Source of the DNA: Nitrospirota bacterium | Lineage (GTDB): Bacteria > Nitrospirota > Thermodesulfovibrionia > UBA6902 | DNA: 64,000 bases | Reading direction: 5' to 3' | NCBI GenBank assembly: GCA_016214845.1 | Contig: JACRMS010000019.1 | Span: 1-64,000 of the forward strand | Part shown: piece after piece, positions 7,853 to 40,178 of the stretch | Layout of the letters: each line of letters starts with the position of its first letter | Numbering within the stretch: the first letter of the stretch is position 1 | Translations under genes and position numbers: made by a program | Notes under the pieces: model-generated | Database searches by the model: none | The model's input: only the letters and a program-made list of their open reading frames with translations | What the model was told of the DNA's origin: nothing

Positions 7853-7900
7853 TTTTCCTCCCTTATGAATATCAACAAGTCTGTCTTCCCTCATTTCTCC

Positions 7901-9139: not shown

Positions 9140-9503
9140 AATGTCTCCTTTTGCGCCTCCGGGAAAATCCGGGCGCATTCCGAGCCCCCGTTCAGGTCCC
9201 CTCTCCTTATTCTTTCTGTTTGCCTGTCGGAAATAATTTTACCACTAATTGAAAGACAGTCAAGATTTTAGTTGAAATTAATTTTTCGAATGACTTGCAA
9301 CCTGGTCCATTCTATAAAGGACGATAAGACAGGAAAGATAATCCTCGAAAAGCTGATAGAGAAATTCCCCGGCAACTTCCTGTTATCTGTATTTTTGAAT
9401 TATGTAAAAGGGTACAGGAAAACCGGTTAACTAATAAAACTATTAATCCTTTTTAATAGTCAAGTAATGTCTTCGGTGATAAATAAAGACATAGGGGAGT
9501 TTT
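9140..9503. other. Intergenic region with one small open frame
   Basis: A gap of about 360 bp between the divergent DUF3300 gene and the large secreted protein. It must hold both promoters, but I cannot assign either with confidence. One short protein-like frame (9290-9430) is listed separately. No riboswitch or palindromic element is evident here. Confidence 0.4.
9290..9430 (+). CDS. Possible 46-residue protein or gene fragment
   Basis: A frame from ATG 9290 to TAA 9428-9430 encodes 46 residues with a convincing protein-like composition (KDDKTGKIILEKLIEKF, then a hydrophobic FLLSVFLNYV and a basic end). A TTG at 9272 would lengthen it slightly. There is no clear ribosome-binding site. It may be a small gene or a remnant of a larger one; the product is not recognised. 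Confidence 0.3.
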   Translation: MTCNLVHSIKDDKTGKIILEKLIEKFPGNFLLSVFLNYVKGYRKTG

Positions 9504-24578: not shown

Positions 24579-25835
24579 TTATTTGTCTTTGAGACTCCAT
24601 CTGCCTCTTCTGAGGCGGCTTCCTTTGTAAGTGCCGTCGGCCTTTTCCTTCTCAATCACCTTGAGAAATAATTTCGCCATTTGCAGGTTCTGGCTGCAAT
24701 CCCGGTAGAACGTGTCCCACGCGTAGAAAAACATTTTCTGCAGCGCATCCACGCTCATCTTTGCGGGCTGAAACACAACCTCCGCGCCTGTGTAGTGAAG
24801 CCAGTCGTTATGAAGAATTCTTTTCTGCTTCTCAAGGTCTGCCCTGATGGGCGTGTGGGGAAACGGCGTGAGTATTGTAAATTCCGCAAGGTCCAGCTCG
24901 ATCTCAAGCAGGAAATCAACAAGACGCTTGATGTAATCCTCATCATGGTCGTCCATGCCGAGGATAATGGTCCCCTCCACACCGATGCCGCGTTCCTTGA
25001 GCCTCTTCACCCGCCTCCGTATGTGGTCCGATGTATCGAAGACCGCCTGATACACATACCAGCAGCCTGCCTCTGCGGCAAGGTCCAATATCTCGTCATC
25101 ATCTTTGATGGGGTGAGAGATCCATTTCTTCTTCAGAGGGATCAATGCCCTGAACAATTCCTTTTCCCATTCGTCATCCTGCGCGAGGGAATTGTCCACA
25201 AAGAAAAGCCGGTTGTTGTCGAGCTGTTCCAGTTCCCGGACCACCGCGTCAATCGCCCTGGCCCTGAATTTCCGCCCGCCGAGAAAAGGCGTACAGCAGG
25301 GGAAACAGTTAAACCGGCAGCCGCGTGAGGCGTGCACAAGGTCAACCATCTGCACGCCCCGGTAATTATATAATTTGCGGTTTAAGATACTACGCCTCGC
25401 CGGGCCGATCAAATTCATGTCAGGAAAGTCATTGAGATAGTTGTAGACTTTTTTCAGCTTATTATTTCTGACATCGTTTATGACTTCTTCAAAACGCCCC
25501 TCTGCCTCGCCGAGGAAGACCGCGTCAGCGTGCAGCATGGTTTCCTCGGAGTGCAGCATGGTCCCGATACCGCCGAATATGACTGGAACGCCTTGTTTCC
25601 TGAAACGGTCCGCGAGCTCCCAGGCACGCGGTATCTGGCAGGTGAGCATGACCGAGAAAGCCACAATATCGGCCTTTTCGTCAAAATCAACGGGCTGAAT
25701 GTTCTCATCGTAAAAAGATATTTCAACGTCATCAGGGATGGCGGCCGCAAAACAGACAGGCCCGTGCGGCGGGAGGTGGAATTCCGTCTGCCTGTTTAAC
25801 TTGGGCCATGAGGGATAGATAATTTTTATTTTCAT
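24579..25835 (-). CDS. Cobalamin-binding-type radical SAM protein (third of three)
   Basis: A 418-residue radical SAM enzyme with an N-terminal cobalamin-binding-like domain (FSVMLTCQIPRAWELADRF and VIFGGIGTMLHSEE). The cluster motif CRFNCFPC, followed by CTPFLGGRKFRAR, lies near residue 172. The later GTIILGMDDHDEDY and TILTPFPHTPI strands are standard. Its start overlaps the stop of the chain-length-factor-like gene (ATGA, 25832-25835), placing it directly in the ketosynthase operon. That coupling makes it the radical SAM protein most likely to act on the growing or finished acyl chain. The C-terminus is basic (RLRRGRWS). Confidence 0.88.
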   Translation of the reverse strand: MKIKIIYPSWPKLNRQTEFHLPPHGPVCFAAAIPDDVEISFYDENIQPVDFDEKADIVAFSVMLTCQIPRAWELADRFRKQGVPVIFGGIGTMLHSEETMLHADAVFLGEAEGRFEEVINDVRNNKLKKVYNYLNDFPDMNLIGPARRSILNRKLYNYRGVQMVDLVHASRGCRFNCFPCCTPFLGGRKFRARAIDAVVRELEQLDNNRLFFVDNSLAQDDEWEKELFRALIPLKKKWISHPIKDDDEILDLAAEAGCWYVYQAVFDTSDHIRRRVKRLKERGIGVEGTIILGMDDHDEDYIKRLVDFLLEIELDLAEFTILTPFPHTPIRADLEKQKRILHNDWLHYTGAEVVFQPAKMSVDALQKMFFYAWDTFYRDCSQNLQMAKLFLKVIEKEKADGTYKGSRLRRGRWSLKDK

Positions 25836-26503
25836 TGATCTCTTCCTTTGCGTAAGCTCGAAAATTCTTTTACCAGCTTGTCCTGCGGCATGTCCCTGCT
25901 CAATATGGCCCTGGCCTTATCAGCGTCACACAGAAAATCTTTATTAGCGGCATTGTCTCTCATGAGCGTAAAATAAACGGCCTCATTTTCCCCTGTCATC
26001 CCCGCAAACATCGCTGTGGTTTCCTCAGAGAGGAGCATCTCAGATGCCGTTGTAATTACCTTCAGCAGCGATTTCTTCGGGGCGGAAGAGAAAAACACCG
26101 GGCCCTGCAAACCAAAATGTATTGCCGCTTCTCCAAGCGGGCTTGACGGCAGCGTGTAAATAAAGAGATTGCCCCTCGCCAGGGTCCGCCCGCAATCCAG
26201 GTAGTCCTTGAAATAATCAATGTCCGCCTGCAAAGAACCTGAATCGTTAGCGCCGATGGCCCCGATGTCCTGCTTTAGCTCCGGCGAGTAATCAATTCCG
26301 GCGTCCTTCAATGCGAGCGCGATTGCATAACAGGTCAGCTTTGATATTCTATCAAGCCTGCCGAAATATTTAAACGGATGGGAGAAAACCTTTTTGGACA
26401 AACCGCCAAAACCGGTATCGCCTTCAAAGGCAACCCTGGTCCCCTTTGCGATGCATCCGTATTCCTTCGCATCAATCCATCCTATGCCGTAAATATTAAT
26501 CAT
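25832..26503 (-). CDS. Truncated, Cys-less ketosynthase-like protein (chain-length-factor-like)
   Basis: A 223-residue protein that resembles only the N-terminal half of a beta-ketoacyl synthase (MINIYGIGWID, then LSKLTCYAIALALKDAGIDY and a GEAAIHFGLQGP segment). Where an active ketosynthase has its nucleophilic Cys, this protein reads FFSSAPKKS, and the C-terminal His motifs are absent. It follows the ketosynthase gene without any gap (26504/26503). In aryl-polyene synthases a ketosynthase pairs with a Cys-less chain-length factor, and this is the obvious counterpart. Its half length is unusual. I infer a non-catalytic partner that shapes chain length. Confidence 0.75.
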   Translation of the reverse strand: MINIYGIGWIDAKEYGCIAKGTRVAFEGDTGFGGLSKKVFSHPFKYFGRLDRISKLTCYAIALALKDAGIDYSPELKQDIGAIGANDSGSLQADIDYFKDYLDCGRTLARGNLFIYTLPSSPLGEAAIHFGLQGPVFFSSAPKKSLLKVITTASEMLLSEETTAMFAGMTGENEAVYFTLMRDNAANKDFLCDADKARAILSRDMPQDKLVKEFSSLRKGRDQ

Positions 26504-27625
26504 TCATTTCACCACCAGCGCCGTATTGATCCCGCTGAAACCCGCGTTTGTTATGAGCGCCATCTTTTTATTTGATAATGCGCGCTGTTTATTTGAAACC
26601 CAGCCATGCGCGTCATCATCGGCAGCTTTTAGATTTACAGTAAGCGGGACCACTTTCTCCTTTAACGCCCTGAGCGCCGTTATTGTTTCAACAAGTCCCG
26701 CTGCTCCGAGGGTGTGCCCTATGGCCCCTTTGACGGAATAAACGGGCAACTTGTTTTTGAACACGGCATGAAATGCCCTCATCTCCATCGCATCGTTGTA
26801 AACCGTTCCAGTGCCGTGCGCTGAGATGAAACCGATGCCGCCTTCATCCGCGCCCGCGGACCTTAATGCCTTTTTTACGGCCATTATCAATCCGTCGCTC
26901 GTGCGGGAAGGGCCTGTCATATGGTTGGCGTCGTCGCTCATCCCCCAGCCCGCTATTTCACCAATGATATTTCTTTTCTCCCTTTTTGCCCTCGCATCGC
27001 TCATGAGCAGCGCATATACAGCGGCCTCACCGAGGCTCAGGCCGCTCCTTTTTTTATCAAACGGTTTTGCTGCAAATTTTTCGAGCGCCATCAGCGAAGA
27101 GAAACCCGCGTAAACAAATTCCGTGACGCTGTCGCAGGCAGTTACTAAAACGCAATCGCCGTATCCGCTGCGTATCATCGAGGCAGCCCTTGCCAAAGCC
27201 GTTGATGATGAGGCGCAGGCAGCGGAGATGATCATGCCGCTGTCTTTGACCCCGGCGAGGGCCGAGATCTTTTTCAGGAGTTTATGCGGATTGCTGTCTG
27301 AAGCGTCTCCCCTGCCTGTAAGAAATTTTTTCTCAAGCAGATCAATCTCTCCTTTTGTCGTTGCCAGAATAAGTTTTGCGTCTTCCGGTATCGATGCGGA
27401 ATTATCTTTAAGCAGCAGCCTGAACATCTGCATCACCAAAGAATCATTCTTAAGATATTTCAGGCCATTAATTACGGCTGCATTATCAGACTGGAATGCT
27501 TTGGTGTTAAACCTGTCTATTTTTGAAATCGCCGTCCCGCCGGACCTGATGCCGTTCCAGAGCGCGTCTGTCCCCGCTCCAAACGCGGTGACCATATCGC
27601 ATGAGACAACAACTGCTTTTTTCAT
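26504..27625 (-). CDS. Beta-ketoacyl-ACP synthase (aryl-polyene KS-like)
   Basis: A 373-residue condensing enzyme. The Cys-His-His triad is intact: Cys in SAACASSSTALA, His in SAHGTGTVYNDAME, and His in GAIGHTLGAAG. It begins MKKAVVVSCDMVTAFGAG. I place the start at ATG 27625, which overlaps the TGA of the thioesterase gene (ATGA); a longer frame to 27664 lies in that gene. It is followed directly by the Cys-less partner. It should extend acyl-ACP chains by decarboxylative condensation with malonyl-ACP. The sequence resembles secondary-metabolite ketosynthases more than housekeeping FabF. Confidence 0.88.
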   Translation of the reverse strand: MKKAVVVSCDMVTAFGAGTDALWNGIRSGGTAISKIDRFNTKAFQSDNAAVINGLKYLKNDSLVMQMFRLLLKDNSASIPEDAKLILATTKGEIDLLEKKFLTGRGDASDSNPHKLLKKISALAGVKDSGMIISAACASSSTALARAASMIRSGYGDCVLVTACDSVTEFVYAGFSSLMALEKFAAKPFDKKRSGLSLGEAAVYALLMSDARAKREKRNIIGEIAGWGMSDDANHMTGPSRTSDGLIMAVKKALRSAGADEGGIGFISAHGTGTVYNDAMEMRAFHAVFKNKLPVYSVKGAIGHTLGAAGLVETITALRALKEKVVPLTVNLKAADDDAHGWVSNKQRALSNKKMALITNAGFSGINTALVVK

Positions 27626-28107
27626 CTCCTGTGAAACTCTCCGGCCTTCCATCTCGTCCTGCATCTTTCAAGCAAAGGAGGCGATATTATGCAAACCTCT
27701 CCGGTCGCTGCGGCGGTCAGCACCTGCACCGTGTATCCGCTCGTTGCGATACGGCCGTCTTCCTTTAAAAGATAATACTCCGTGTTAATGCGTGAACTCT
27801 CGTCCCACACCAGGACGGCCCGTATTTTAAACACTTCCCCCAGACGGAGGGGCTTCAGATAATCAATATAAAGCTGAGCAATGGGCGCGCGCAAGCCTGA
27901 CTCGTAAAAATCCTTATACGACAGGCCGCATACCCTGCCAAGCTCCTCGGAGCCTTCCTCAAAAAAGACCGGGTATCTGCCGTGCCAGACTATGCCCAGG
28001 AGATCGACCTCATTGAAATGGACGCGCCGCTCAACCTCAACCACAATCGGCCCCGGCGCTCCCTCGGCGCTCTTAAAATAATTTTTAGCTCTCCGCCTGT
28101 TTTCCAT
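27622..28107 (-). CDS. Hotdog-fold acyl thioesterase (4HBT type)
   Basis: A 161-residue hotdog protein of the 4-hydroxybenzoyl-CoA thioesterase family. The pattern VERRVHFNEVDLLGIVWHGRYPVFFEEGSEEL matches the family (here split as VHFNEVDLLGIVWHGRY and following), with the catalytic Asp expected in the EVD segment. It is coupled to the ketosynthase gene by an ATGA overlap. Thioesterases of this type occur in aryl-polyene clusters and could release or edit acyl-ACP intermediates. No good ribosome-binding site is visible at ATG 28107; a palindromic element lies just upstream. Confidence 0.8.
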   Translation of the reverse strand: MENRRRAKNYFKSAEGAPGPIVVEVERRVHFNEVDLLGIVWHGRYPVFFEEGSEELGRVCGLSYKDFYESGLRAPIAQLYIDYLKPLRLGEVFKIRAVLVWDESSRINTEYYLLKEDGRIATSGYTVQVLTAAATGEVCIISPPLLERCRTRWKAGEFHRR

Positions 28108-28228: not shown

Positions 28229-28615
28229 TTAATTTTTAAATTCCACTTTGAGTTTTAACTCCGATATCTTTTTATCGCCTTTGCTGAAGTACGCCCTCAG
28301 GACGAAGTCAGCGTCTGTTTTGTCAATGCCTTTGCACATGCAGGTAATTTCTTCGGAAGGAGAAACGGTCGAGAAAAACTTTGCAAGGACGATCTCCTTC
28401 AGCGTGACTTTCCTGTCTTTCCATTTCTCAAGCATTGTCATGGCGCACTGTATCTGGCATACGCCGGGCAGTATTTTGTTGCCAGGGAAATGCCCCTGAA
28501 AGCCTATGAAATCTTCGGGAAAGACAAAACGCGCGATCAGCCCCGGGGCTTCTTTGACCGTCCCTTCTTCCAACCCGCTCATGCATTTCTCGATCTCTCT
28601 TTTTATGGAACTCAA
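28229..28615 (-). CDS. FabZ/ApeI-like hotdog dehydratase
   Basis: A 128-residue hotdog-fold protein. The core GFQGHFPGNKILPGVCQIQC contains the catalytic His and the LPG loop of 3-hydroxyacyl-ACP dehydratases. It would remove water from 3-hydroxyacyl-ACP to give the trans-2-enoyl chain; repeated use without an enoyl reductase gives conjugated polyenes. It overlaps the DUF3261-like lipoprotein gene upstream by 4 bp. In aryl-polyene synthases this type acts with an ApeP-like partner; that partner here is the C-terminal domain of the fusion at 32430-33905. Confidence 0.85.
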   Translation of the reverse strand: MSSIKREIEKCMSGLEEGTVKEAPGLIARFVFPEDFIGFQGHFPGNKILPGVCQIQCAMTMLEKWKDRKVTLKEIVLAKFFSTVSPSEEITCMCKGIDKTDADFVLRAYFSKGDKKISELKLKVEFKN

Positions 28616-29277
28616 CCCCTGATCTCCTTCAATTTTATTGTCAGACCGTAACCGTATTTGTAATTATCTAAGATAATACCTGAGGGATATATTTTTCCAT
28701 CTTTCTGCCGGTATTCGTAATAGGAGACACGCCAGTTAAGCCTGCTGTCCTCATAATAATTTTTTTCGACCAAATGGCCGCCTTCGCCTGCGAAGATATA
28801 TTCAACAACTCCCGCCCCCAGCGGCTCATCGAATATAACTTTATACTTTCTCTTTTTTACTTCAGCCGAGGCAGACGGGGTGAGGTCAAAATATATCCTC
28901 CTGATGTCCTCGCCGACCGTGCGGGGGAAGTTGCCTTTCTTAGTGAATTGCTCCATCGCAAAATGGGAATCGATCCGGTCTTTATCTCCGGCCAATTCAA
29001 AGAGCTTTACACCCATGGGATTTATGCAGACCACGGTGAAAGTCTTTTCCTTTGCATCTACCTTTATGTAACCAAGCCCTGATAACTTGTTCCAGTTGTA
29101 ATCAAAGACGATCGAGTTTATGAGCATGAAATTTTCAGGCGAATGGCCCCTGAACTCTTCCACAAGCGCCCACGGGTCTGCGCTTTCCATCGGGACTTCC
29201 GAAGCCTTTTGAAAAGGAATGCCGGCGCATGAGGTGATGCAAGCAAATAAGATTAGGATTATCAGTAAACGTTTCAT
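28612..29277 (-). CDS. DUF3261-like lipoprotein of the export module
   Basis: A 221-residue lipoprotein with leader MKRLLIILILFACITSC (lipobox ITSC). The mature part has a beta-rich LolB-like pattern (LGYIKVDAKEKTFTVVCINP, then VKLFELAGDKDRI), fitting the DUF3261 proteins that accompany MMPL transporters in aryl-polyene clusters. I start at ATG 29277, which has GAGGGA five bases upstream; TTG 29289 is less likely. The MMPL stop lies just ahead, and the dehydratase overlaps its end. Probable role: receiving the lipid at the outer membrane. Confidence 0.8.
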   Translation of the reverse strand: MKRLLIILILFACITSCAGIPFQKASEVPMESADPWALVEEFRGHSPENFMLINSIVFDYNWNKLSGLGYIKVDAKEKTFTVVCINPMGVKLFELAGDKDRIDSHFAMEQFTKKGNFPRTVGEDIRRIYFDLTPSASAEVKKRKYKVIFDEPLGAGVVEYIFAGEGGHLVEKNYYEDSRLNWRVSYYEYRQKDGKIYPSGIILDNYKYGYGLTIKLKEIRG

Positions 29278-29285
29278 GGTATCCC

Positions 29286-31685
29286 TCAATTCGCCTTTCC
29301 TTTCACAAACAACTCACATAATTTCGGCACGACCATTACTGATGAAAAAAATCCCGCGCCCAGGCCGATGACCATTGTTATTCCCACAGAAGAGAGGGCC
29401 GGGTGCTTTGCAAAGATCAGGACCCCCACGCCGATCAGCGTAGTTATCGTGCAAAGCGTAATTGCCATGACTGTGCCGGTGTTCATCTCTTTTCTGCTGC
29501 GGAATGTCATGAATATGCCGTAATCCGAATTTAGTCCAATCACTAAAACTCCCGCGATCATATTGGCCGCGTTTATTGAAAGCCCGAAAAGGGCCATAAG
29601 GCCAAAAAGCCAGATAATGCTGGTCAGCGACGGCACGAGGGCTATCAGTGTCTCTCTAACATTAAAGAAACACAGGTAAGTCATCACGATCACGCTGATC
29701 GTTGATATCCAGGTCATAAGCTTCAAGTCTTTTGATACGACCTCGGACAGCGTGTTGGAGAGGACAGAGGCTGAGACGAGATACGAATTTGGATAACGCC
29801 TGCTTATTTCATTCATGGAATCCACATACTCTTTTGTGTCGGGGAAAAATGACACAACGCGGTAGCCGTCATCTGTCCTTTGAACAAAGCGTTCAAATAA
29901 ACTGTTGCCGGCTTCTCCTCTATCAAGAGGGGGCAGGGGTGTGTTGTTAAAATGGTTGACTTTCAGGCTTTCAAAAAAGGGATCAAACGCGCGTTCGGAA
30001 AAATTATATTTTTTGCCTTCCTGTAAAAGAAGGCCCCTGAGTTTTTGTCTTCTCTCTTCCGACCAGAACCTATGCCAGCGTTCCGCGTTTTGCTTCCTGG
30101 TCTTTTCCGCCTGCCATAATAAAGCCATGCTGGTGAAGTTTTCCGCTCCGACAGCCTGCACAGCGTCTTTGTAGATCTTTTCATTAATCTCCAGCGCGCC
30201 TTCGTAACCTTTCGAGTTGACAACAAGCACGGCAGGTGTTTTATTGCCTCCCCATGTTTTGTGAAAACGTTCCTCCGCATTTCTTATCTCTTTTTCAGTC
30301 CCGTCCAGGTTTTTGATATCTCTTTCAAACTCAACGTGGACGGCAAAGTAAGACAACGCAAGCGTAAAAAAGATCCAGAACAGGACGGTCAATCCGTTTG
30401 AGATATTTCCGCGCTCAAGCTTTTCAGCGATGCGGTCCGCAAAGGAGGCTTTGACGTCCGGCTTCAACATGAGATGGGGCAGCACAAATATGGAAATAAA
30501 CGTTGACAGTACAATGCTGATGATCGCTACAACCGCAAGCTGGTTGTAGCCTTTTATCCCGGAGAAAAAAAAGGCCAGGAAAATAGCTATCGTCGTCAAG
30601 GCGCCGAAGCCTACGGGTTTTATAACGTGTTTCACAAAGGGGGCGGAGTCGCTTTTCCCCTGCGCGGCAAAATAGACATGGGTCCCGTAATCAGTGGCGA
30701 TCCCCGCGACTGTGGAGCCCAAACCGATTACCCAGTATGAGAGTTTTCCGACAAGCAGATACGACAGATCAATGGAAAACACGATCGTCACGACAGGTAT
30801 CATGAATATCGTAACCGCGCTGACATCCCTTATCACTACCCCGTACAAAAGCAGCATGGCGATTGCCGCAATAATGCTGATCAAATATATATCATTCTTT
30901 ATCAGCTTCTCATTGCTGACGGTATGGGCGTGCCCGCAGATGATGTCCGCGCGGATATAGCCGGGCAGTGTTTTGAGGCTGTTTTTAAGGGAAGCCAATA
31001 TTTTTTTTGAGCCTGCGGAATCCGTGACGGCAACCGCGGACTTCGCGATTAACATTGCATGCCTGCCGTCCCTGCTGACAAAATGCCCGTCTTTTATTTC
31101 CACGTCATATCCGGTTGAGGAGGAAAGGGCCTTGAGTTTTTCAAGGACAAGCATCCTCATTCCAAGCGGGTCAGAGCGTAACATGGAGCCAAGCAGCATA
31201 CCCTGAGGTTTTAACAATTGCAGGTAGGCGTCATGAAGCTTTTGGGAAACGTGCTTCCGGTCTATCCACTCGTCTATTTGAGAGAGTTCATTCTCAGAAA
31301 CCATCTCCGGCAGGTTTTTGAACATGGCGTCGATGTCTTTGGCAACCGAGGATTCAGATATCCCGACTGTGACCTCAGGAAACAGATTTCTGTCCAATGA
31401 GCCGGCCAACAGGTCCATCTCTCTCAGGAGGTCGTTAATGTCCTTTTCAGGAGAGGTCAATTCTAGGGACACAACCACCTTACCGGCAATATTTGAATTG
31501 CGGAAGAATTCCATGCTCCTGCCGAGGACCTCATTTTGGGGCAGGATATTGTCCATGCTGCTTTCGTATTCGACAAAGTAAAGGGCTGCAAGGCTGATGA
31601 GTATAAGCAGGATGAGGATGACCTGCACCGGTCTTTTGTTTCTCGCGGTGTAGTCGTAAAAACGGCCTGAGTATTTATCAAACAC
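29286..31685 (-). CDS. MMPL/RND-family lipid exporter
   Basis: A 799-residue inner-membrane transporter with the RND duplication: one N-terminal membrane segment, a large periplasmic loop, five membrane helices (IIAAIAMLLLYGVVI onward), then the same again (ISTISVIVMTYLCFF onward). Proteins of this family export polyene lipids and flip glycolipids. I prefer GTG 31685, which overlaps the LolA-like stop by 8 bp and has GAGGTC upstream; a frame to 31775 lies inside that gene. The second periplasmic loop contains an inserted peptide NNTPLPPLDRGEAG encoded by a repeat element (29912-29946). Confidence 0.9.
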   Translation of the reverse strand: MFDKYSGRFYDYTARNKRPVQVILILLILISLAALYFVEYESSMDNILPQNEVLGRSMEFFRNSNIAGKVVVSLELTSPEKDINDLLREMDLLAGSLDRNLFPEVTVGISESSVAKDIDAMFKNLPEMVSENELSQIDEWIDRKHVSQKLHDAYLQLLKPQGMLLGSMLRSDPLGMRMLVLEKLKALSSSTGYDVEIKDGHFVSRDGRHAMLIAKSAVAVTDSAGSKKILASLKNSLKTLPGYIRADIICGHAHTVSNEKLIKNDIYLISIIAAIAMLLLYGVVIRDVSAVTIFMIPVVTIVFSIDLSYLLVGKLSYWVIGLGSTVAGIATDYGTHVYFAAQGKSDSAPFVKHVIKPVGFGALTTIAIFLAFFFSGIKGYNQLAVVAIISIVLSTFISIFVLPHLMLKPDVKASFADRIAEKLERGNISNGLTVLFWIFFTLALSYFAVHVEFERDIKNLDGTEKEIRNAEERFHKTWGGNKTPAVLVVNSKGYEGALEINEKIYKDAVQAVGAENFTSMALLWQAEKTRKQNAERWHRFWSEERRQKLRGLLLQEGKKYNFSERAFDPFFESLKVNHFNNTPLPPLDRGEAGNSLFERFVQRTDDGYRVVSFFPDTKEYVDSMNEISRRYPNSYLVSASVLSNTLSEVVSKDLKLMTWISTISVIVMTYLCFFNVRETLIALVPSLTSIIWLFGLMALFGLSINAANMIAGVLVIGLNSDYGIFMTFRSRKEMNTGTVMAITLCTITTLIGVGVLIFAKHPALSSVGITMVIGLGAGFFSSVMVVPKLCELFVKGKAN
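29912..29946 (-). repeat. Repeat element inserted in frame in the MMPL gene
   Basis: The plus strand reads CTTCTCCTCTATCAAGAGGG and then GGCAGGGGTGTG. It is closely similar to the intergenic element at 47779-47815 and encodes the Pro-rich peptide NTPLPPLDRGE in the second periplasmic loop. The reading frame is preserved on both sides. Confidence 0.7.
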
Positions 31686-32343
31686 GCCTTTTGACCTCAA
31701 AGTCCGGGCCTTCAATGGGGGCGTCAAAAATGGTGTCTTTGAAAATGATGGTGGTGCTGTCTCCGCTGACCTCAAGTATCCTGATCTGCTTTAAATACCG
31801 TTCATCTTCCCTGAGTCCGATGGTAATGCTTTTAATGATCTTCCCGGCGGCATTATTTGCCTTTGGCGCAAATTCAAAAACAAGAGGCGACTTCTTTAAA
31901 ATACGCACATCATAATCTTTCAGGAGAGAAATATAATCTCCTGAAAACCACACGGTAAGCTGATTCAGCACATTTTGCAAAACAGGATTGCCGGACAGCG
32001 CTATTTCCTGTACGCGGTTAGTGTCCTCATCCCACTGGCGGATGGATTTATCAGTGATGACCACGGAATATTTTACCGGCTCGTCAACGTGCCACGCGAT
32101 CCTGCCGGGTTTTTGCAGGTAGATCCTGCCTTTCATAACGATCTTGTTTTGAAAGATCGCCAAGTCCTTCTCCTGGACAAAATTCGTCTTTAAGCTCTTG
32201 AAGGCGGAGACGTTCTCCCCAATCCTGCGCAGCATCCCGGGGATTTCAGTCGCATCGTCTGCCGCTGTTAAGCCGGATGCGCAGAGGACCAGCAGGAAGA
32301 AAGAAAGCAGCGGAAATGTAATAAAAATATTTTTGACTTTCAT
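31678..32343 (-). CDS. LolA-like outer-membrane lipid carrier
   Basis: A 221-residue periplasmic protein with a signal peptide (FPLLSFFLLVLCASGLTAA). The beta-barrel half-shell pattern of LolA is visible: LKTNFVQEKDLAIFQNKIVM, then GRIYLQKPGRIAWHVDEP and ITDKSIRQWDEDTNRVQEI. LolA family proteins ferry lipids or lipoproteins across the periplasm. Placement directly ahead of the MMPL transporter (8-bp overlap) and the DUF3261 lipoprotein gives the three-part export set usual for aryl polyenes. It lies 86 bp after the radical SAM-dehydratase fusion. Confidence 0.87.
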   Translation of the reverse strand: MKVKNIFITFPLLSFFLLVLCASGLTAADDATEIPGMLRRIGENVSAFKSLKTNFVQEKDLAIFQNKIVMKGRIYLQKPGRIAWHVDEPVKYSVVITDKSIRQWDEDTNRVQEIALSGNPVLQNVLNQLTVWFSGDYISLLKDYDVRILKKSPLVFEFAPKANNAAGKIIKSITIGLREDERYLKQIRILEVSGDSTTIIFKDTIFDAPIEGPDFEVKRRV

Positions 32344-32429: not shown

Positions 32430-33905
32430 TTATTTATCACCATTATGCCAGACCGTTATCTCGCCTCTGGCAATTAAATCTTCTCCTTTAAAAATTTCTC
32501 CTTTTATTATCCCGAACTCGCTGAACCTGGCGACCTTGGAAACAGACACAAGCAGTTTGTCGCCTGCGTGAGCGCTGCCTAATATCTCAAGATTTTTTAT
32601 TCCAAGCAGAAGCCCCTGTGATTTCGGCCCGCCGTTGCCTGCGTGTTTAAGTCCGTCCTGGGCTGCTATCGCCTGTGAAATGATCTCCGGATAAGACGCT
32701 TCATCAAGTCTTCCGTCTTCCCCGGCAAAGATCGCGTCTGCCGGGATCTCAGCCTCTGAAAGAGACGCCCTCTCTTTCACTTCCATAAGTTTGTTTACCA
32801 TGAGCATGGGCGGTTTGTGGGGAACGAGCTTGGCGGCCTCGGTCGGCAGGCAGATAATATCTTCCTGCCTGTCCAGATTTTCCCAGCACAGCGGATCAGA
32901 GGCCAGGTAATCGCCTGTCATCTGATAGGCCGCCCCGCGGCATCCGTAGCACACACTTTTTTTAGCGCATTTGCCGCAGGGGCCTTTTATTGTGTTCTTG
33001 TAATTTCTGAGGTCCTGTATGACTTCGCTGTCCAATATGATCTCGGAGAGTTTCTTTTCTTTTACATTGCCGACCGGGATGGTGACACCAACGCAGGGCG
33101 TTACATCTCCGTAAACGTTGACCGCGCAGGAAAACTGGTGTCTCAGACATTGTTCGCCAACCAGCGGAGGCTGAGGTTTCCAATCGTAGCCGAATTTATT
33201 ACGGTCGATGTCCGCGATCCGCTGAAATAACTCCCAGACCTGCCGGGGATCGGCTGACAGGAAATCGTTTTCCCTTGCCCTTCCCTGTGGCGTTATCATT
33301 TCAAAATAGGGAGAAATATTTTGCTCCCTCAGCCACTCCCACATACGAACAAGCTCGCCGATATTCTGACGGCATATTACCGTGCTTATTCCAAGGGGAC
33401 TATTATGGGGGAAACCTTCTTCCTTCAGAATGTTGAAGGCCGCCTGTATCTGCCTGTACGCCCCCTTTTTTCCCGACAGGATATCCTGAAGCTTTTCATC
33501 GGTCGTATTCATTTTCAGGACCACCGTGACATTGTTTTCTGCCAAAATTCTTGCAGAGTCCTGCGTCATATTTGCGCCGTTTGTAAAAAGCTCGATATCA
33601 AGGTCAAGCCCTTTAATGAAACCTATCATTTCCATTATGTGGGGATACAACATAGGCTCTCCCCCGAGGATGATAATTTTCCTGGCGCCTAAATCCTTTG
33701 CCTGCTGTATTACGCCGCGGCTTTCCCCGGCGGTCATCTCCTGTTTGCCGTTGACGCCGTTTTGCACGTAGCAGTAGACGCACTTGAAATTACAGTCGCG
33801 GTTAAATTCTATCTCCATGGACAGAAGACCGCCTTTGCCGGCAACCTGTTCTATTTCTGCCGCGGAAAATTCCGCCCCGTAGATACGGGCCTGACATCGC
33901 ATCAT
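32430..33905 (-). CDS. Radical SAM/SPASM-like enzyme fused to an ApeP-like dehydratase
   Basis: A 491-residue fusion. The radical SAM domain has the cluster motif CNFKCVYC with Cys at residues 38, 42 and 45. Residues 265-345 hold further cysteines (PCVGV, CGKC, CYGC, LCWEN), as in SPASM/twitch auxiliary Fe-S domains. From about residue 354 to the end runs a hotdog domain, PTEAAKLVPHKPPML onward, that matches the ApeP-like dehydratase partner of aryl-polyene synthases, including the PHKPPM His motif. The frame is continuous across the junction. It overlaps the ligase gene by 4 bp (ATGA). The fusion suggests radical chemistry on an acyl-ACP substrate; that is inferred. Confidence 0.88.
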   Translation of the reverse strand: MMRCQARIYGAEFSAAEIEQVAGKGGLLSMEIEFNRDCNFKCVYCYVQNGVNGKQEMTAGESRGVIQQAKDLGARKIIILGGEPMLYPHIMEMIGFIKGLDLDIELFTNGANMTQDSARILAENNVTVVLKMNTTDEKLQDILSGKKGAYRQIQAAFNILKEEGFPHNSPLGISTVICRQNIGELVRMWEWLREQNISPYFEMITPQGRARENDFLSADPRQVWELFQRIADIDRNKFGYDWKPQPPLVGEQCLRHQFSCAVNVYGDVTPCVGVTIPVGNVKEKKLSEIILDSEVIQDLRNYKNTIKGPCGKCAKKSVCYGCRGAAYQMTGDYLASDPLCWENLDRQEDIICLPTEAAKLVPHKPPMLMVNKLMEVKERASLSEAEIPADAIFAGEDGRLDEASYPEIISQAIAAQDGLKHAGNGGPKSQGLLLGIKNLEILGSAHAGDKLLVSVSKVARFSEFGIIKGEIFKGEDLIARGEITVWHNGDK

Positions 33906-35200
33906 TGATCTGTTCTCCTATCTATAAAACGCATGGCCTTGCGGGAATTCCCGGCGAAAAGCTGTTTCCTGATCTCTTCTCCGCTTGATATTATTACGTC
34001 GGGCCTTACTCTCAAACGCGCCTGAAGTATGTCCATTATCTCTTTTTCCGTACAGGAATTGCCGTTTACCGAGACATATACCTTCAGTGCATCGGAGAGG
34101 TCAAAGTCACTGGTTACGGAAACATAGTATTCAGCAACTTCGGGGATTTCGTCAAGTGCCGAGTATACAGCCTGCGGATACAAAGTCGTACCCTTGTATT
34201 TCATCATCTGCTTTTTTCTGCCCAGGATTGGGCCAAGGCGGGGCGACTTCCTCCCGCATTCGCACGGCCCGTCTATCAGGAAACTCACGTCGCCTGTCCT
34301 GAACCTGAGCAAAGGCATCCCTTCAATAAAAAAGGTCGTCACCACAACTTCCCCAACTTCACCGGGCGGCAGGACTTCTCCATTATCATTGACGATCTCT
34401 GCTATCGCCAGTTCGGGATGAAGGTGTCCGCCATTTTGCGCGGTACAGTCGCAGAATGTAGTTATTGTCTCGGAAGAGGCGTATGTTGAAAACACCCTGG
34501 CCCCCCAGATTTCTTCCAGGTACGCGCCCATTTTCAGCAAAGATAAATTTTTGTCCCTGAGCGGTTCCCCGATGCAGATAAATTTTTTCACCCCGGTTTT
34601 GCGCGGATCTATTCCCTTTGATTGCAGAAATAGTCCCAGCTTGTGCAAAAATGACGGGACGCCTACAATCGCAGTCGGCTTCATGCGCAGAATAATTTCC
34701 ATGTGGCTGTCAACACTGTTCAGTCCGTTCCTGACAGCGGCGGCCCCGATCGCCCTTATCCCCAAAAAATACGCAAGCCCCGCGATAAAGCACCTGTCAA
34801 TAGTGCATGTGAGCAGGACGATATCATCCGGTGTTATTCCGCATGAGGCAAAAGATATCTCCTCATTGTAAGCCAGCCGCCTCAGGTCGTTTTCGGTGTA
34901 CATTATTTTTGTCGGCTTGCCGGTGGTCCCTGACGATAAGACAATGTCCACAATCTTTGACATCGGGACCGCAAGCAGTTCGTCATTATGGTTTTCAAAA
35001 GCCGATTTATTGGTAAACGGCAGCGAGCTTAAATTTTCAAGGGTAATTTTGTTTAAAGCTATACCGTCCAATGTCCTGCGGTAAAATGGAGAGTTTTCGT
35101 AAATGTAAGCGAGGTGGTTTTGCAAAAGTCTCTCCTGCACGGCCCTGATTTCGTCAGGCGTGGAGAATTCAATATTTCTGTATTGATAGAGATCATTCAT
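33902..35200 (-). CDS. PaaK-like acyl-activating ligase
   Basis: A 432-residue AMP-forming ligase of the phenylacetate-CoA ligase branch. The nucleotide loop SSGTTGKPTKIMYTENDLRR, the central YASSETITTF and the RFRTGDVSF hinge are all present; the C-terminal FAGNSRKAMRF carries the catalytic Lys. It would activate a carboxylic acid as an acyl-adenylate for loading onto CoA or a carrier protein. In aryl-polyene pathways a ligase loads the aromatic starter; the acid used here is not known. It overlaps PlsC upstream and the fusion gene downstream (both ATGA). Confidence 0.88.
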   Translation of the reverse strand: MNDLYQYRNIEFSTPDEIRAVQERLLQNHLAYIYENSPFYRRTLDGIALNKITLENLSSLPFTNKSAFENHNDELLAVPMSKIVDIVLSSGTTGKPTKIMYTENDLRRLAYNEEISFASCGITPDDIVLLTCTIDRCFIAGLAYFLGIRAIGAAAVRNGLNSVDSHMEIILRMKPTAIVGVPSFLHKLGLFLQSKGIDPRKTGVKKFICIGEPLRDKNLSLLKMGAYLEEIWGARVFSTYASSETITTFCDCTAQNGGHLHPELAIAEIVNDNGEVLPPGEVGEVVVTTFFIEGMPLLRFRTGDVSFLIDGPCECGRKSPRLGPILGRKKQMMKYKGTTLYPQAVYSALDEIPEVAEYYVSVTSDFDLSDALKVYVSVNGNSCTEKEIMDILQARLRVRPDVIISSGEEIRKQLFAGNSRKAMRFIDRRTDQ

Positions 35201-35946
35201 GCCGCGCCCTCCATCGAGGCGAGTTCCTGTCGCATAATTTCCCGCACCCTGTTTTTTAATGTGAACACGTTCGCGCCCTTATAATCCTGCGGCTGAATAG
35301 CAGGCAGCCTGCGTATTTTTATTGTCACCGGCCTCATAAGCCATGAACCTTTCGGAGGCGTATTCTCATTCCCTGTGATGCAAATAGGGACTAAGGAGGC
35401 ATTTGTCTGCAGCGCGAGGCGGAAGGCGGAGCCGTGGAAACTGCCCATTTCCCTTCCCGTGGACCGCGTCCCCTCAGGGAAAAATATTATTGAGACTTTG
35501 TCTTCAAGGACCTTCGCGGCTTTCTCAAGGAACAGTTCGTGGTCCATCATCCTTATATTCAGGTACCCGGCGAACCGGGCGAAAAAACCGAGGACGGGAA
35601 TGCGGAAAGGCCAGATATTTACAACCTGGATTGCTTCATGAGGGAGCACGGACATCAGGAAGGCGTCTGACGCGGACCTGTGGTTGCTGACGAAGATATA
35701 AGGCCCCTGAAGACTACCTTTTGAATGATCTTCATAGCGGACCCTGATAAAAGGGAAGGGGACCAGGACCATTCCTTTTCCGTACCAGCTTATGGCGCGG
35801 CGGAATCTTTTCATTACGTAGCGTTTGGGCGCAACCAGCGATATCAGGGTCACAAAGATTATTAAAACAGGAATAGCTATAATGGAAAAAATCATAAAAG
35901 CACTATACAAATAGAGATTCAAGAAAAATAGTATAAAATATTTCAT
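35197..35946 (-). CDS. PlsC-type 1-acylglycerol-phosphate acyltransferase
   Basis: A 249-residue membrane-associated acyltransferase. It has N-terminal hydrophobic segments (YLYSAFMIFSIIAIPVLII), then the HX4D catalytic motif in SNHRSASDAF and the FFPEGTRS substrate motif. Family members transfer acyl chains from ACP or CoA to glycerol-phosphate-type acceptors. Within the cluster it probably moves the finished chain to a membrane acceptor. It overlaps the ligase gene by 4 bp. A hairpin (35958-36039) separates it from the carrier protein gene upstream. Confidence 0.9.
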   Translation of the reverse strand: MKYFILFFLNLYLYSAFMIFSIIAIPVLIIFVTLISLVAPKRYVMKRFRRAISWYGKGMVLVPFPFIRVRYEDHSKGSLQGPYIFVSNHRSASDAFLMSVLPHEAIQVVNIWPFRIPVLGFFARFAGYLNIRMMDHELFLEKAAKVLEDKVSIIFFPEGTRSTGREMGSFHGSAFRLALQTNASLVPICITGNENTPPKGSWLMRPVTIKIRRLPAIQPQDYKGANVFTLKNRVREIMRQELASMEGAA

Positions 35947-35957
35947 TTAAAAAAACT

Positions 35958-36039
35958 TAAGAGTTATGAGTGAAAAGTTAAGAGTTCAGGAGACGATGTA
36001 TCGTGATCTTTTCAGTTTTAATTTTCAACTTTTAACTTA
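35958..36039. repeat. Imperfect palindrome, AGTTAAAAGT family
   Basis: TAAGAGTTATGAGTGAAAAG and AGTTAAGAGTT on the left partly pair with AACTTTTAACTTA on the right. It lies between the carrier protein and acyltransferase genes of the cluster. The pairing is weaker than in the other families. Confidence 0.45.
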
Positions 36040-36300
36040 TTTTGTCGCCCCTTCTTCATTCTTTATCGCTGAAATAAAGTCGTAAATGTCCTGCAGGGTC
36101 CTTATGTTTCTGACCTTTTCCTCATTCCGTATCTTGACGCCGAAGCTTTTCTGGAGCGCTACTACCAGATCAACAATATCAAGGCTGTCAAGGCCGAGGT
36201 CGGTGAATATGTGCGCGCCCGGCAGCAATTTGTCCTTTTCTATTTCAAATGATTCCTCAAACACCTTATTGGTTTTATCGATGATCTCTTGCTCGGTCAT
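36037..36300 (-). CDS. Acyl carrier protein
   Basis: An 87-residue acyl carrier protein. The phosphopantetheine site is in FTDLGLDSLDIVDLVVALQ, and the C-terminal helix is RTLQDIYDFISAIKN. GGAGGAAAAT lies directly before ATG 36300. It follows the ketosynthase gene in transcription order and precedes the PlsC gene. With the carrier at 18001-18282 it makes two distinct carriers in the cluster, as in aryl-polyene synthesis, where one may carry the starter and the other the growing chain. Confidence 0.94.
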   Translation of the reverse strand: MTEQEIIDKTNKVFEESFEIEKDKLLPGAHIFTDLGLDSLDIVDLVVALQKSFGVKIRNEEKVRNIRTLQDIYDFISAIKNEEGATK

Positions 36301-36519: not shown

Positions 36520-37746
36520 CTATATTTTCCTGCACACCAGTGAAGCGTTAATGCCTCCGAAGGCGAAGCAGTTTTTCAGGATTGTGTTGATCTCTTTATT
36601 AACGGGTTTTGTAATATGGTTTAATCCTTCACAGTCAGGACTGACCTCGTCTAAATTCAGTGTCGGGTAGATAATATTTTTTCCCATCATTATCAATGAA
36701 GCGATCAGTTCAATTGCCCCCGATGCGCCGAGCGTATGTCCGATGTACCCTTTCAAGCTGCTTACCGGGCTAACATCACCGAATATTTCTTTTATGGCCC
36801 CGGCTTCTTCCGTATCACCATGCGGTGTGCCGGTGGCGTGCGCGTTTATATAGTCTATCTTCTCCGGTGTTGTTTCAGCATTCCGCAAGGCTTCATTCAT
36901 GCAATTGGTCATGGATTTTTTATCCGACTGGCTCATGTGAGAGCCGCTCCCGCAAGTGCTGTAGCCGGTGATCTCCGCGTAGATCTTCGCATTTCTTTTA
37001 ACGGCGTGTTCGTATTCTTCCAGTGCCAGTATACCGCTCCCCTCTCCGCAGACCAGCCCGTCGCGGTCTTTATCAAAGGGGCGCGGGGTCTTTTGCGGGG
37101 TCTGGTTGTATTTGGCAGAAGTCGCAAAGAGGACATCAAAAGAGCCGGTAACCGTGGGATGAAGCTCCTCAGCCCCTCCGCATAAAATTATATCCTGCCT
37201 TCCAAGTCTTATTAAATCATATCCCGCGCCAATAGCCTGAAGGCCTGAGGCGCAGGCCGCTGCCGTGGCAGCTATGTACCCTGTCAATCCGAGGTACTGG
37301 GCCACATTCGCTGAAGCCGTGTGCGACATGCACTGAAAGAACATCGTGGAGGGCAACTGCGTCAAATCTCTATCCGGCAGCATCATTTCAAATACATCAT
37401 TAATGCTCCTTGAACTCCCCATGGTCGAACCGATAACACACCCGGTCCTGCCCGAAGATAATCCGGCGGGAGTTATCCCGGAATCGGTAAGCGCCTGCTC
37501 CGCTGCCTGAACAGCGAATATGCTCATGCGTCCCATTGAGCGCCTGCTCTGCCGGGGGATCTTCTTTTCATCTTTTAATTCCGCAGGGGCCGCCACATGA
37601 CTTCTCATGCCGATATACTTCGTCCACTCCTCCATGAAGCGCACAGCGCTCCTGCCCGTTTCAAGCCCTTCAATAAAAGGGCCGATGCTGTTTCCTAAAG
37701 GTGTGACGACTCCGATTCCTGTGATCACTACGCGTTTTAATTGCAT
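36520..37746 (-). CDS. FabF-type beta-ketoacyl-ACP synthase
   Basis: A 408-residue ketosynthase of normal length. The triad is intact: Cys in TAAACASGLQAIGAGYDLI, His in NAHATGTPHGDTEEAGA, and His in KGYIGHTLGASGAIE. It starts MQLKRVVITGIGVVTPLG, the standard FabF opening. This is the second active ketosynthase of the cluster, corresponding to the ApeR-like enzyme thought to act early in aryl-polyene synthesis; the KS at 26504-27625 with its Cys-less partner would extend the chain. Role assignment between the two is inferred. Confidence 0.92.
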   Translation of the reverse strand: MQLKRVVITGIGVVTPLGNSIGPFIEGLETGRSAVRFMEEWTKYIGMRSHVAAPAELKDEKKIPRQSRRSMGRMSIFAVQAAEQALTDSGITPAGLSSGRTGCVIGSTMGSSRSINDVFEMMLPDRDLTQLPSTMFFQCMSHTASANVAQYLGLTGYIAATAAACASGLQAIGAGYDLIRLGRQDIILCGGAEELHPTVTGSFDVLFATSAKYNQTPQKTPRPFDKDRDGLVCGEGSGILALEEYEHAVKRNAKIYAEITGYSTCGSGSHMSQSDKKSMTNCMNEALRNAETTPEKIDYINAHATGTPHGDTEEAGAIKEIFGDVSPVSSLKGYIGHTLGASGAIELIASLIMMGKNIIYPTLNLDEVSPDCEGLNHITKPVNKEINTILKNCFAFGGINASLVCRKI

Positions 37747-37758
37747 AACATTCTATTT

Positions 37759-37818
37759 ACCACATAGGCACGGAGACACAGAGAAATATTAATTAGACGC
37801 CTCTGTGTCTCTGTGGTT
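37759..37818. repeat. Palindromic element, CCACAGAGACAC family
   Basis: ACCACATAGGCACGGAGACA and CACAGAG on the left pair with CCTCTGTGTCTCTGTGGTT on the right around an A+T-rich loop. It lies in the gap between the CrtI-like gene and the ketosynthase gene. Confidence 0.7.
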
Positions 37819-39316
37819 AATTTAAACCCTTGCTCAAGAATTTATTATACTGCTCCTCTTCCAGAATATACCGCCCGACGAGAAACGAAGACATCATGGC
37901 GCCCATTATCCCCGGTAAAAGGGAGCTTTGTCCTGCGGCGTATAAATTGCGGAGGGGGAGCTTGCCGATCAGATTGTACTGGCCGATCTTCTGTTTTACT
38001 CCATAAGCAGAGCCGTCAGGGCTGTTCAGGTAATCTCTGAATGTAAGCACGGACGCTGAATCAATAACTTTTATCCGGTCTTTATATCTGGGGAACGCGT
38101 TATAAATGCGGCCTGTTATATTTTCAACCTTCTCTTTTTTGTAATCCCCGTAAGCCTGCGGCCTCCTGCCGGTCTTTGAATCCTTCCAGTTCTCAACGTG
38201 TTCAATGAAGGACGGTTCAAACGCGTTAATGGTTTTGTATATTTTCCCCTTCACTTCTTCTATTGATTTAATGATCACCAATGCCGATTGCCCCCGGTTT
38301 GCCGGGTCTAAAAGCTGATTAACATCTGTGTGAGGAAAGATAGAGAGTATATTTGAATTAAAATCGGGTTCGTCATATTCTTCATCCAATACCGCAAAGA
38401 CCGTGAAGAAACCCGCAGAAGATTCAAATGATGTGACACGGTCAACAAATGCCTTGCTCAAATTCTGCTCCGGCAGGACCTTTAATATTTCGCCTGGATG
38501 TATCGTGAAGATACAGTTTTCAGCCGTGACCTCTTCGCCTGTATTAAGGATGAACCTTCCCGCCTTTTTATTGTTGACGTCTTCCAGCTTTGCAATGTAT
38601 TTGCCGCAGCGTATTTCAATATCGGAGCTTTTAAATTTTGCCTCAAAGGCCTTTATGAAGGCTTCCCCGCCATCTTTGACCCGCGCGACCGACTCGTAAA
38701 GTCCGAGACACATCCTGCTGTGATTGGCAAATGAGATCTCCTTCGGCATCACGCCGTAGCACATCGCAAAACCGGACAGCAGCGCCTTTAAAACAGCATT
38801 ATCTGTCAGCCCGTTTAATACCTCATCCAGGCTCAAAAAATCTTCATTCATAGGGTTGTGCAACGCGGTGAGCGCCTGCAGATCCATGGAGGGCGTGTTA
38901 GCGCAGACCTGCTGGACTTTCTCAAAATACCTGTCAAGGGCCGACTCTTCCCCGGGGAAATAGCCTTTAAATTTCTTCTTTAATTTTTCAAGCCCGTACG
39001 GGATTTCATAGAGCCTGCCCTCCGGTTCAAAGAAAAAGGAGTTTGCGTTTTCTTCAGATAAAAAAACCGGCTGGATCAAATCACGGATCCCAAGCGCCGA
39101 CAGCATGTCGTACAGCAGGCCGTTTTTATGAAGCCCTCCGGTGAAATGGAAACCCGTATCAAAAGGGACGCCCTTTTTATAAAACCGGGACACAGAGCCT
39201 CCAATGCGGGGGCTCTTTTCAAGCAGCAGCACCTTGCGCCCGTTCATCCCGAGGATAAGCGCCATGGTCAATCCGCTGATGCCGCTTCCAACAACTATGT
39301 CGTCATATTTTTGCAT
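37817..39316 (-). CDS. CrtI/retinol-saturase-like FAD oxidoreductase
   Basis: A 499-residue flavoprotein. The N-terminal FAD motif VVGSGISGLTMALILGMNG and VLLLEKSPRIGGSVSRF match phytoene-desaturase-like enzymes; the C-terminal YAAGQSSLLPGIMGAMMSS completes the cofactor site. The family desaturates or saturates conjugated polyene chains. In this cluster it could reduce, desaturate or isomerise the polyene. Similar oxidoreductases are not a standard part of the known aryl-polyene core, so this is a departure. It lies between the FabG-like and ketosynthase genes, with palindromic elements on both sides. Confidence 0.85.
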   Translation of the reverse strand: MQKYDDIVVGSGISGLTMALILGMNGRKVLLLEKSPRIGGSVSRFYKKGVPFDTGFHFTGGLHKNGLLYDMLSALGIRDLIQPVFLSEENANSFFFEPEGRLYEIPYGLEKLKKKFKGYFPGEESALDRYFEKVQQVCANTPSMDLQALTALHNPMNEDFLSLDEVLNGLTDNAVLKALLSGFAMCYGVMPKEISFANHSRMCLGLYESVARVKDGGEAFIKAFEAKFKSSDIEIRCGKYIAKLEDVNNKKAGRFILNTGEEVTAENCIFTIHPGEILKVLPEQNLSKAFVDRVTSFESSAGFFTVFAVLDEEYDEPDFNSNILSIFPHTDVNQLLDPANRGQSALVIIKSIEEVKGKIYKTINAFEPSFIEHVENWKDSKTGRRPQAYGDYKKEKVENITGRIYNAFPRYKDRIKVIDSASVLTFRDYLNSPDGSAYGVKQKIGQYNLIGKLPLRNLYAAGQSSLLPGIMGAMMSSFLVGRYILEEEQYNKFLSKGLN

Positions 39317-39455: not shown

Positions 39456-40178
39456 CTACATCGCCAGTCCGCCGTTGACGCCGATTACCTGTCCGTGGAT
39501 ATACATGTTTTCTTCCGTGCACAGGAAGTTCACTACTGAAGCAACATCCTCGGACCTGCCAACCCTGTTCAGCGGAATCAATGGCAGCACCTGCGCCTTC
39601 GGGATTTTTTCGGTCAATTCCGTTTCAATAAAACCGGGCGCAACCACATTGACAAGTATATTTTTCTTTCCAACTTCACGCGCTAATGCCTTGGCCGCGC
39701 CGATCAGTCCCGCCTTTGAAGCGGAATAATTTACCTGCCCCGCATGGCCTATCTGTCCAGACGTTGACGATACAATAATAATGCGTCCCTTTTTGGCCCG
39801 TAACATTGAAAACAATACCATGCGTGTCACGTTGTAAAACCCGTCAAGATTTGTGGAAAGGACGGAATCCCACTCATCTCTTGTCATCCACACTAACAAA
39901 TTATCACGGGTGATCCCCGAATTGTACACGAGCACATCAGGGGCGAAGTCCTCAACTCTCGGGGCCAGGGCGTCTTCCGTCTCTTTGTAACTTGAGACAT
40001 CAAACGGTATCAAATCGCAGGTCACGCCGGAAGCTTCTATTTCCGACTTTACTTCTTTTGCGGCCTCGTGATTGCTCTTGTAGGTCAGCCAGATATTAAA
40101 TCCTGATTTAGCCAGACTTAAAGCTATCGCGCGCCCGATACCGCGGCTTCCGCCGATTATTAATGCAGTTTTTGCCAT
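39456..40178 (-). CDS. FabG-type 3-ketoacyl-ACP reductase (SDR)
   Basis: A 240-residue short-chain dehydrogenase. The NADPH loop is ALIIGGSRGIGRAIALSL; the catalytic Ser, Tyr and Lys lie in IVSSTSGQIGHAGQVNYSAS followed by K; VAPGFIETE is conserved. It reduces 3-ketoacyl-ACP to the 3-hydroxy form, the step before the dehydratases. As the most upstream gene of the minus-strand cluster it sits behind the best promoter found for it (40193-40222). It has a very short leader and no clear Shine-Dalgarno. Confidence 0.92.
   Translation of the reverse strand: MAKTALIIGGSRGIGRAIALSLAKSGFNIWLTYKSNHEAAKEVKSEIEASGVTCDLIPFDVSSYKETEDALAPRVEDFAPDVLVYNSGITRDNLLVWMTRDEWDSVLSTNLDGFYNVTRMVLFSMLRAKKGRIIIVSSTSGQIGHAGQVNYSASKAGLIGAAKALAREVGKKNILVNVVAPGFIETELTEKIPKAQVLPLIPLNRVGRSEDVASVVNFLCTEENMYIHGQVIGVNGGLAM

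Follow-up and report, generated by a model that had tools for sequence, protein, structure and literature searches.

Introduction

In FabZ-type dehydratases the active site is formed by a His from one subunit and an acid from the other. Two described systems stand closest to the gene reported here. The first is the APE (aryl-polyene) type of pigment cluster, with gene functions available for E. coli CFT073 (PMC8253772) and a published ApeI/ApeP heterodimer that has a single active site (PMC8041823). ApeP of Xenorhabdus (6QSR) and of E. coli CFT073 (apeP) is a stand-alone protein that has lost the His and kept the Glu, and an ApeI-like partner is encoded nearby. A fused arrangement is found in ApeH-ApeI of Acinetobacter baumannii, where a pathway enzyme other than the dehydratase, the ligase, bears a subunit of the dehydratase heterodimer (ApeI) at its C-terminus (PMC8041823).

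The second system is the proposed ladderane cluster of the kuste3335-3352 type (gene list in PMC4790861), a FASII-like cluster in which the radical SAM/SPASM enzyme Kuste3343 adjoins a PaaK-type ligase and a B12-radical SAM gene. When expressed in E. coli, Kuste3343 was not detected (PMC4790861). The parts of Rattray et al. (PMC2649909) used here note SAM-radical, phytoene-desaturase-like and phenylacetyl-CoA-ligase genes in Kuenenia and Desulfotalea and make no mention of a fused form, and 'ladderane' clusters in non-anammox phyla have been reported (PMC9902471). This orphan radical SAM enzyme has long been proposed for ladderane or anaerobic polyunsaturated lipid synthesis.

Described here is a gene that joins a Kuste3343 homologue to an ApeP-like hotdog domain, located in a stretch of 64,000 nucleotides from a member of the Nitrospirota (contig JACRMS010000019.1, positions 1 to 64,000), the whole of which is called the window. 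No published account of a radical SAM-ApeP (radical SAM-hotdog) fusion was found in the open-access literature, relative to which the protein counts as a new and widespread variant that combines parts of two known kinds. It is a 'Rosetta stone' in that it links the orphan enzyme to a named machine, the ApeI:ApeP dehydratase, and the fusion probably couples the radical step to the machinery that builds the chain.

Reading frame and domains

The ORF at 32430-33905 on the minus strand begins with ATG and encodes 491 aa in a single intact frame with zero internal stops. Its features are as follows.

32430..33905, minus strand: radical SAM/SPASM-ApeP fusion protein, 491 aa (Pfam, family profile, AlphaFold2 model, Foldseek)
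32886..33905, minus strand: N-terminal radical SAM core and SPASM region (residues 1-340), Kuste3343 homologue (Pfam; L146 profile match 483 bits; 45.8% identity)
33771..33794, minus strand: CX3CX2C motif, Cys38/42/45 (present in 76/77 relatives)
32886..33149, minus strand: SPASM region with eight Cys from Cys253 to Cys340, expected to hold two auxiliary clusters (every Cys kept in 75-77 of 77 relatives)
32433..32861, minus strand: C-terminal ApeP-like hotdog, residues 349-491 (family profile, Pfam, Foldseek)
32685..32687, minus strand: Glu407, invariant candidate catalytic acid (77/77 relatives)

Pfam places Radical_SAM at residues 32-188 (E 3.5e-21) and SPASM at residues 253-313 (E 3.2e-9). 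The Cys residues are arranged as 38/42/45, 253/260/271/322 and 310/313/319/340, which we take to be the pattern of anSME-type enzymes with two auxiliary clusters, and each of the three core and eight auxiliary Cys is kept in at least 75 of 77 relatives. A further Cys near the N-terminus, Cys4, is kept in 73 of 77 fused proteins and missing from two unfused relatives (L023 and L024). Regarding the named SPASM families of NCBIfam (such as AhbD, NirJ and PqqE), none of the matches listed reaches its cut-off, the best being AhbD with 142.7 bits vs 500; an AhbD or NirJ identity for the radical SAM half was ruled out on these scores, which fall far under the cut-offs.

The whole-protein AlphaFold2 model has a mean pLDDT of 90.8 and a pTM of 0.89, and a fold search with it recovers both halves (SkfB, SuiB, PqqE, BlsE and anSME; ApeP and FabZ). 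The solved structures closest to the radical SAM part are the RiPP maturases SkfB and SuiB, then PqqE, as would be expected of a RiPP-type peptide maturase that happens to bear a hotdog. That reading is very improbable and was dropped: clustering of ORFs of 90 aa or more from the 80 loci described below gave no recurrent peptide gene family, the neighbours are synthase, ligase and export genes, and the top folds also include BlsE, which is a small-molecule enzyme.

Distribution and phylogeny

Scanning contigs at one genome per species yielded 361 relatives, and the best 80 of the 361 are all full-length fusions, with 46-96% identity, from about nine phyla. According to the record labels, the carriers belong to Nitrospirota, Thermodesulfobacteriota (Geobacteraceae, Desulfobacteraceae), Myxococcota, Omnitrophota, Verrucomicrobiota, Kiritimatiellota, Lentisphaerota, Planctomycetota and Bacteroidota; they are mostly MAGs, for which individual labels may be wrong. 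Among 396 sampled genomes of the window's phylum, 20 contained a match (15 fused and 5 unfused), and the ten genomes examined from the window's genus, its own included, comprised five with the fused form, two with the unfused form and three with neither.

When the radical SAM parts are placed on a tree, one branch (SH-aLRT 100) divides 50 fused from 9 unfused proteins, so that a single fusion event would suffice to explain the tree. Phyla are intermixed (e.g., Geobacteraceae beside Nitrospirota), which suggests transfer of the fusion between phyla.

The first-pass annotation had described one continuous frame made of a radical SAM/SPASM-like enzyme and an ApeP-like hotdog, and had named a missed stop or frameshift, or homologues with the two halves always separate, as grounds for abandoning it. 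The radical SAM/SPASM assignment is borne out by Pfam and the conserved Cys, and the fusion is genuine, being one ORF here and full-length in the best 80 of 361 relatives. The chance that two genes were joined by a sequencing or assembly error is negligible, since the same fusion is present in every one of these 80 independent records and in 15 of the 20 matching genomes of the phylum. That the halves are normally separate was likewise ruled out; the nine unfused radical SAM homologues studied form a clade of their own.

The hotdog half and its partner

For the window protein alone, the C-terminal ~140 residues match PF22817 (ApeP-like) weakly (E 0.009, 16 bits vs a 27-bit cut-off), and the same Pfam family is matched by 29 of 39 family members (E up to 0.01; best 9.2e-8). 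A family profile compared with the PDB places Xenorhabdus ApeP (6QSR chain B) first, with E 3.7e-16 and well ahead of FabZ proteins; 6QSR_B, the ApeP of the ApeI:P complex, also ranks first in a Foldseek search with the AlphaFold2 model. The hotdog profile gives E 1.4e-18 for ApeP vs 6e-5 for the anammox FabZ. With ApeP the best profile, PDB and fold match, the ApeP-like nature of this half, as annotated in the first pass, is supported.

The PHKPPM motif by which the hotdog had been recognised fared less well: its His is kept in 41 of 77 relatives, with Gln in the other 36, and is thus not the defining residue. Invariant instead are Glu407 and Gln411 (77/77). The position of the FabZ-type catalytic His is occupied by Phe in 74 of 77. 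The hotdog had also been expected to pair with the following protein.

28229..28615, minus strand: ApeI-like hotdog partner, His42 kept, Gln56 in place of the acid (Pfam, profile comparison, alignment)

The pairing is supported by complementary halves of a dehydratase site. The ApeI-like partners have the catalytic His in 39 of 39 cases and Gln or another non-acidic residue at the acid position in 38 of 39, and an ApeI-like gene is found in 52 of the 80 fusion loci, many contigs being too short to reach its position. Because the hotdog keeps the Glu and has lost the His, and the partner keeps the His without an acid, the fusion is probably an obligate subunit of a split-site dehydratase of the ApeI:ApeP type, and there are fairly strong grounds for expecting that dehydration should need the fusion protein. 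Analogy by itself does not prove the split site, as the ApeI-type proteins of E. coli and Xenorhabdus retain an acid of their own (Asp), which the window-type partners have lost.

Loss of the His could also mean that the hotdog is a non-catalytic docking module and that a homodimer of the ApeI-like protein performs the dehydration. This is improbable, given a Glu407/Gln411 pair that never varies and partners which, with one exception, are without an acid of their own.

Organisation of the operon

Most of the 80 best fusion loci share one conserved operon, usually in the order FabG, CrtI-like, KS1, ACP, PlsC, FlxY/PaaK-like ligase, fusion, LolA, RND, LolB, ApeI-like, thioesterase, KS2, half-KS, two B12-radical SAM proteins and GT2. 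In the window, the genes around the fusion and its partner are as follows.

39456..40178, minus strand: FabG ketoreductase, ApeQ-like (profile comparison)
37817..39316, minus strand: CrtI/phytoene-desaturase-like flavoenzyme, Kuste3336-like (profile comparison)
36520..37746, minus strand: KS1, ketosynthase, ApeR-like (NCBIfam, profile comparison)
36037..36300, minus strand: acyl carrier protein, ApeF-like (profile comparison)
35197..35946, minus strand: PlsC-type acyltransferase, ApeD-like (profile comparison)
33902..35200, minus strand: FlxY/PaaK-like adenylating ligase, Kuste3344 homologue, ATGA overlap with the fusion start (NCBIfam, profile comparison)
31678..32343, minus strand: LolA-like carrier, ApeL-like (Pfam, NCBIfam, profile comparison)
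29286..31775, minus strand: RND/MMPL transporter, ApeM/Kuste3337-like, true start probably further in (Pfam, profile comparison)
28612..29289, minus strand: LolB-like DUF3261, ApeN-like (Pfam, profile comparison)
27622..28107, minus strand: 4HBT thioesterase, ApeK-like (Pfam, profile comparison)
26504..27664, minus strand: KS2, ketosynthase, Kuste3346/3349-like (Pfam, profile comparison)
25832..26503, minus strand: half-length KS-like protein, probable chain-length factor (Pfam, profile comparison)
24579..25835, minus strand: B12-binding radical SAM protein a (Pfam)
23040..24410, minus strand: B12-binding radical SAM protein b, Kuste3342-like (Pfam, profile comparison)
21887..23149, minus strand: GT2 glycosyltransferase with DUF2062 (Pfam, profile comparison)
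20851..21753, minus strand: lipid A-type acyltransferase, like the C-terminal part of ApeJ (Pfam)

The half-length KS-like protein is kept in 44 of 80 loci and is probably a short chain-length factor. Its profile has weak matches to Kuste3348 and to Kuste3345, the latter listed as 'unknown', and none to ApeC, the annotated chain length factor of E. coli, which is likewise short (240 aa). Three B12-binding radical SAM proteins are encoded in the one cluster (19393-20826, 23040-24410 and 24579-25835). These may carry out methylations, since no methyltransferase gene family was found to recur in the 80 related loci. A polysaccharide deacetylase gene (18384-19313) adjoins the cluster, and ladderane-type clusters carry one too.

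Comparison with APE and ladderane clusters

The family profiles were measured against two yardsticks: the APE proteins of E. coli CFT073, and a locus of the planctomycete set (L146) in a single-contig genome of 4.41 Mb (G160), which is taken to be Kuenenia and whose gene order in this locus is that published for kuste3335-3352. Across both yardsticks, Kuste3343 (the L146 protein listed above) is the sole match of the radical SAM profile and Kuste3344 (379 bits) that of the ligase profile; the profile of B12-radical SAM protein b matches Kuste3342 (385 bits) and that of the CrtI-like enzyme Kuste3336. The best matches of the KS1, FabG, thioesterase, LolA, LolB, PlsC, ACP and ApeI profiles are APE proteins. 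As the profiles split between Kuste and APE proteins, the fusion protein and the operon are each a combination of ladderane-type and APE-type parts.

Regarding the APE side, the set of KS, short CLF, KR, ApeI, ApeP, ACP, thioesterase and LolA/RND/LolB is present, with profile matches to ApeR, Q, P, I, F, K, L, M, N and D. A search of the operon profiles for an ApeH-type ligase and an ApeB methyltransferase gave no ApeB match, and the ligase matched only Kuste3344, as above. ApeP is here fused to a radical SAM enzyme, unlike the stand-alone APE protein; the A. baumannii ligase bears ApeI, whereas the radical SAM enzyme of the window bears ApeP. Scores against the flexirubin families of NCBIfam are below the cut-offs for both FlxY (window ligase, 469 bits vs 520) and LolA2 (window LolA, 106 vs 125).

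Regarding the ladderane side, radical SAM, ligase, B12-radical SAM, CrtI-like and GT genes are shared between the window's cluster and the kuste3335-3352 type. The latter differs in being a colinear set with two methyltransferases, a separate FabZ and an unfused radical SAM enzyme, whereas the enzyme is fused in the window and its relatives have no recurring methyltransferase family. Kuste3343 and its unfused relatives are without the hotdog and form the separate clade. Four Nitrospirota loci, L023, L024, L026 and L148 (genomes G002, G007, G039 and G535), contain clusters of the kuste3335-3352 type in which most of the genes between the TPR/deacetylase end and the phytoene desaturase are colinear with L146. 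Because such clusters occur in Nitrospirota, either the product is not anammox-specific or the cluster is not for ladderanes.

The comparison defines a widespread hybrid gene cluster of anaerobic, mostly uncultured phyla, which probably makes a polyene lipid.

Proposed function

The fusion is best explained as a two-function subunit in the synthesis of a polyene lipid, providing part of a split-site dehydratase and a radical SAM enzyme for an ACP-bound or newly activated acyl group; this is favoured with a confidence moderately above even. The protein would belong to an iterative type II polyketide/fatty-acid-like synthase of anaerobic bacteria with an APE- or flexirubin-like product. ApeI would give the catalytic His and the fused ApeP-like half the Glu of one composite dehydratase site, which, judging from the invariant complementary residues, would introduce a double bond in each elongation round. 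Pairing of the hotdogs would hold the radical SAM/SPASM half on the synthase, where a 5'-deoxyadenosyl radical may modify an ACP-bound acyl group or one freshly activated by the overlapping ligase (moderate confidence), most likely the starter or a young chain. A more specific proposal, put forward tentatively and at somewhat less than an even chance, is that the radical SAM/SPASM enzyme is a built-in dehydratase subunit of a type II synthase, acts there on the ACP-bound chain or starter, and performs the same reaction as the Kuste3343 step of the ladderane-type pathway. The fusion protein and its expected partner offer a route to an assay of the radical step.

The position of the ligase bears on the substrate. 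In the window, the ligase stop and the fusion start overlap as ATGA; among 60 loci whose ligase adjoins the fusion, the gap mostly stays within some 10 nt, and the same 4-nt overlap occurs in 17 (ORF starts assigned mechanically). Because the fusion directly follows, and often overlaps, the acid ligase gene, a starter or early-chain step fits the gene order at least as well as an elongation step on an ACP-bound chain. Some clusters have a ligase that does not adjoin the fusion, which weakens a strict ligase-fusion coupling. Six clusters without an adjacent ligase have ligase homologues elsewhere in the genome, those of G348 and L047 being closer to the ladderane-type paralogue. The surroundings of the distant ligases of L165 and L166 were checked for a starter pathway and gave no clue, the ligase being the only cluster gene there.

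Alternatively, the radical SAM half might, with the overlapping ligase, make or modify a free starter acid (e.g., an aryl acid), the hotdog aiding dehydration or only tethering the supply near the synthase. The frequent ATGA overlap would suit this, as would the side-by-side position of ligase and radical SAM genes in clusters of both types, those with the hotdog and those without it; both observations equally suit the two-function explanation. It is nevertheless rather unlikely: an enzyme for a free acid would need no fusion to a dehydratase subunit, no conserved starter-acid gene was found near the operon in the 80 loci, and there are several clusters in which the fusion is present and the ligase lies in another part of the genome. 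For the radical SAM half, the favoured reaction is one on an acyl substrate that is ACP-bound or ligase-activated.

One MAG of the planctomycete set (G122; L150, 6778-8289) encodes a fusion without the CX3CX2C segment, in which the SPASM Cys, the hotdog and the Glu are retained and which FabG-CrtI-KS1-ACP still adjoin. No close ligase homologue was found in this genome, and the joint absence of ligase and radical SAM motif can be counted in favour of the two-function explanation and of the free-acid alternative alike. This single MAG suggests that the hotdog may matter without radical chemistry, and that the radical SAM function and the ligase go together.

In one PVC-group MAG (L099), the genes directly upstream of the fusion (7815-9864) resemble components of 2-hydroxyacyl-CoA dehydratase / benzoyl-CoA reductase, judged by eye, a possible hint of an aromatic or cyclic starter.
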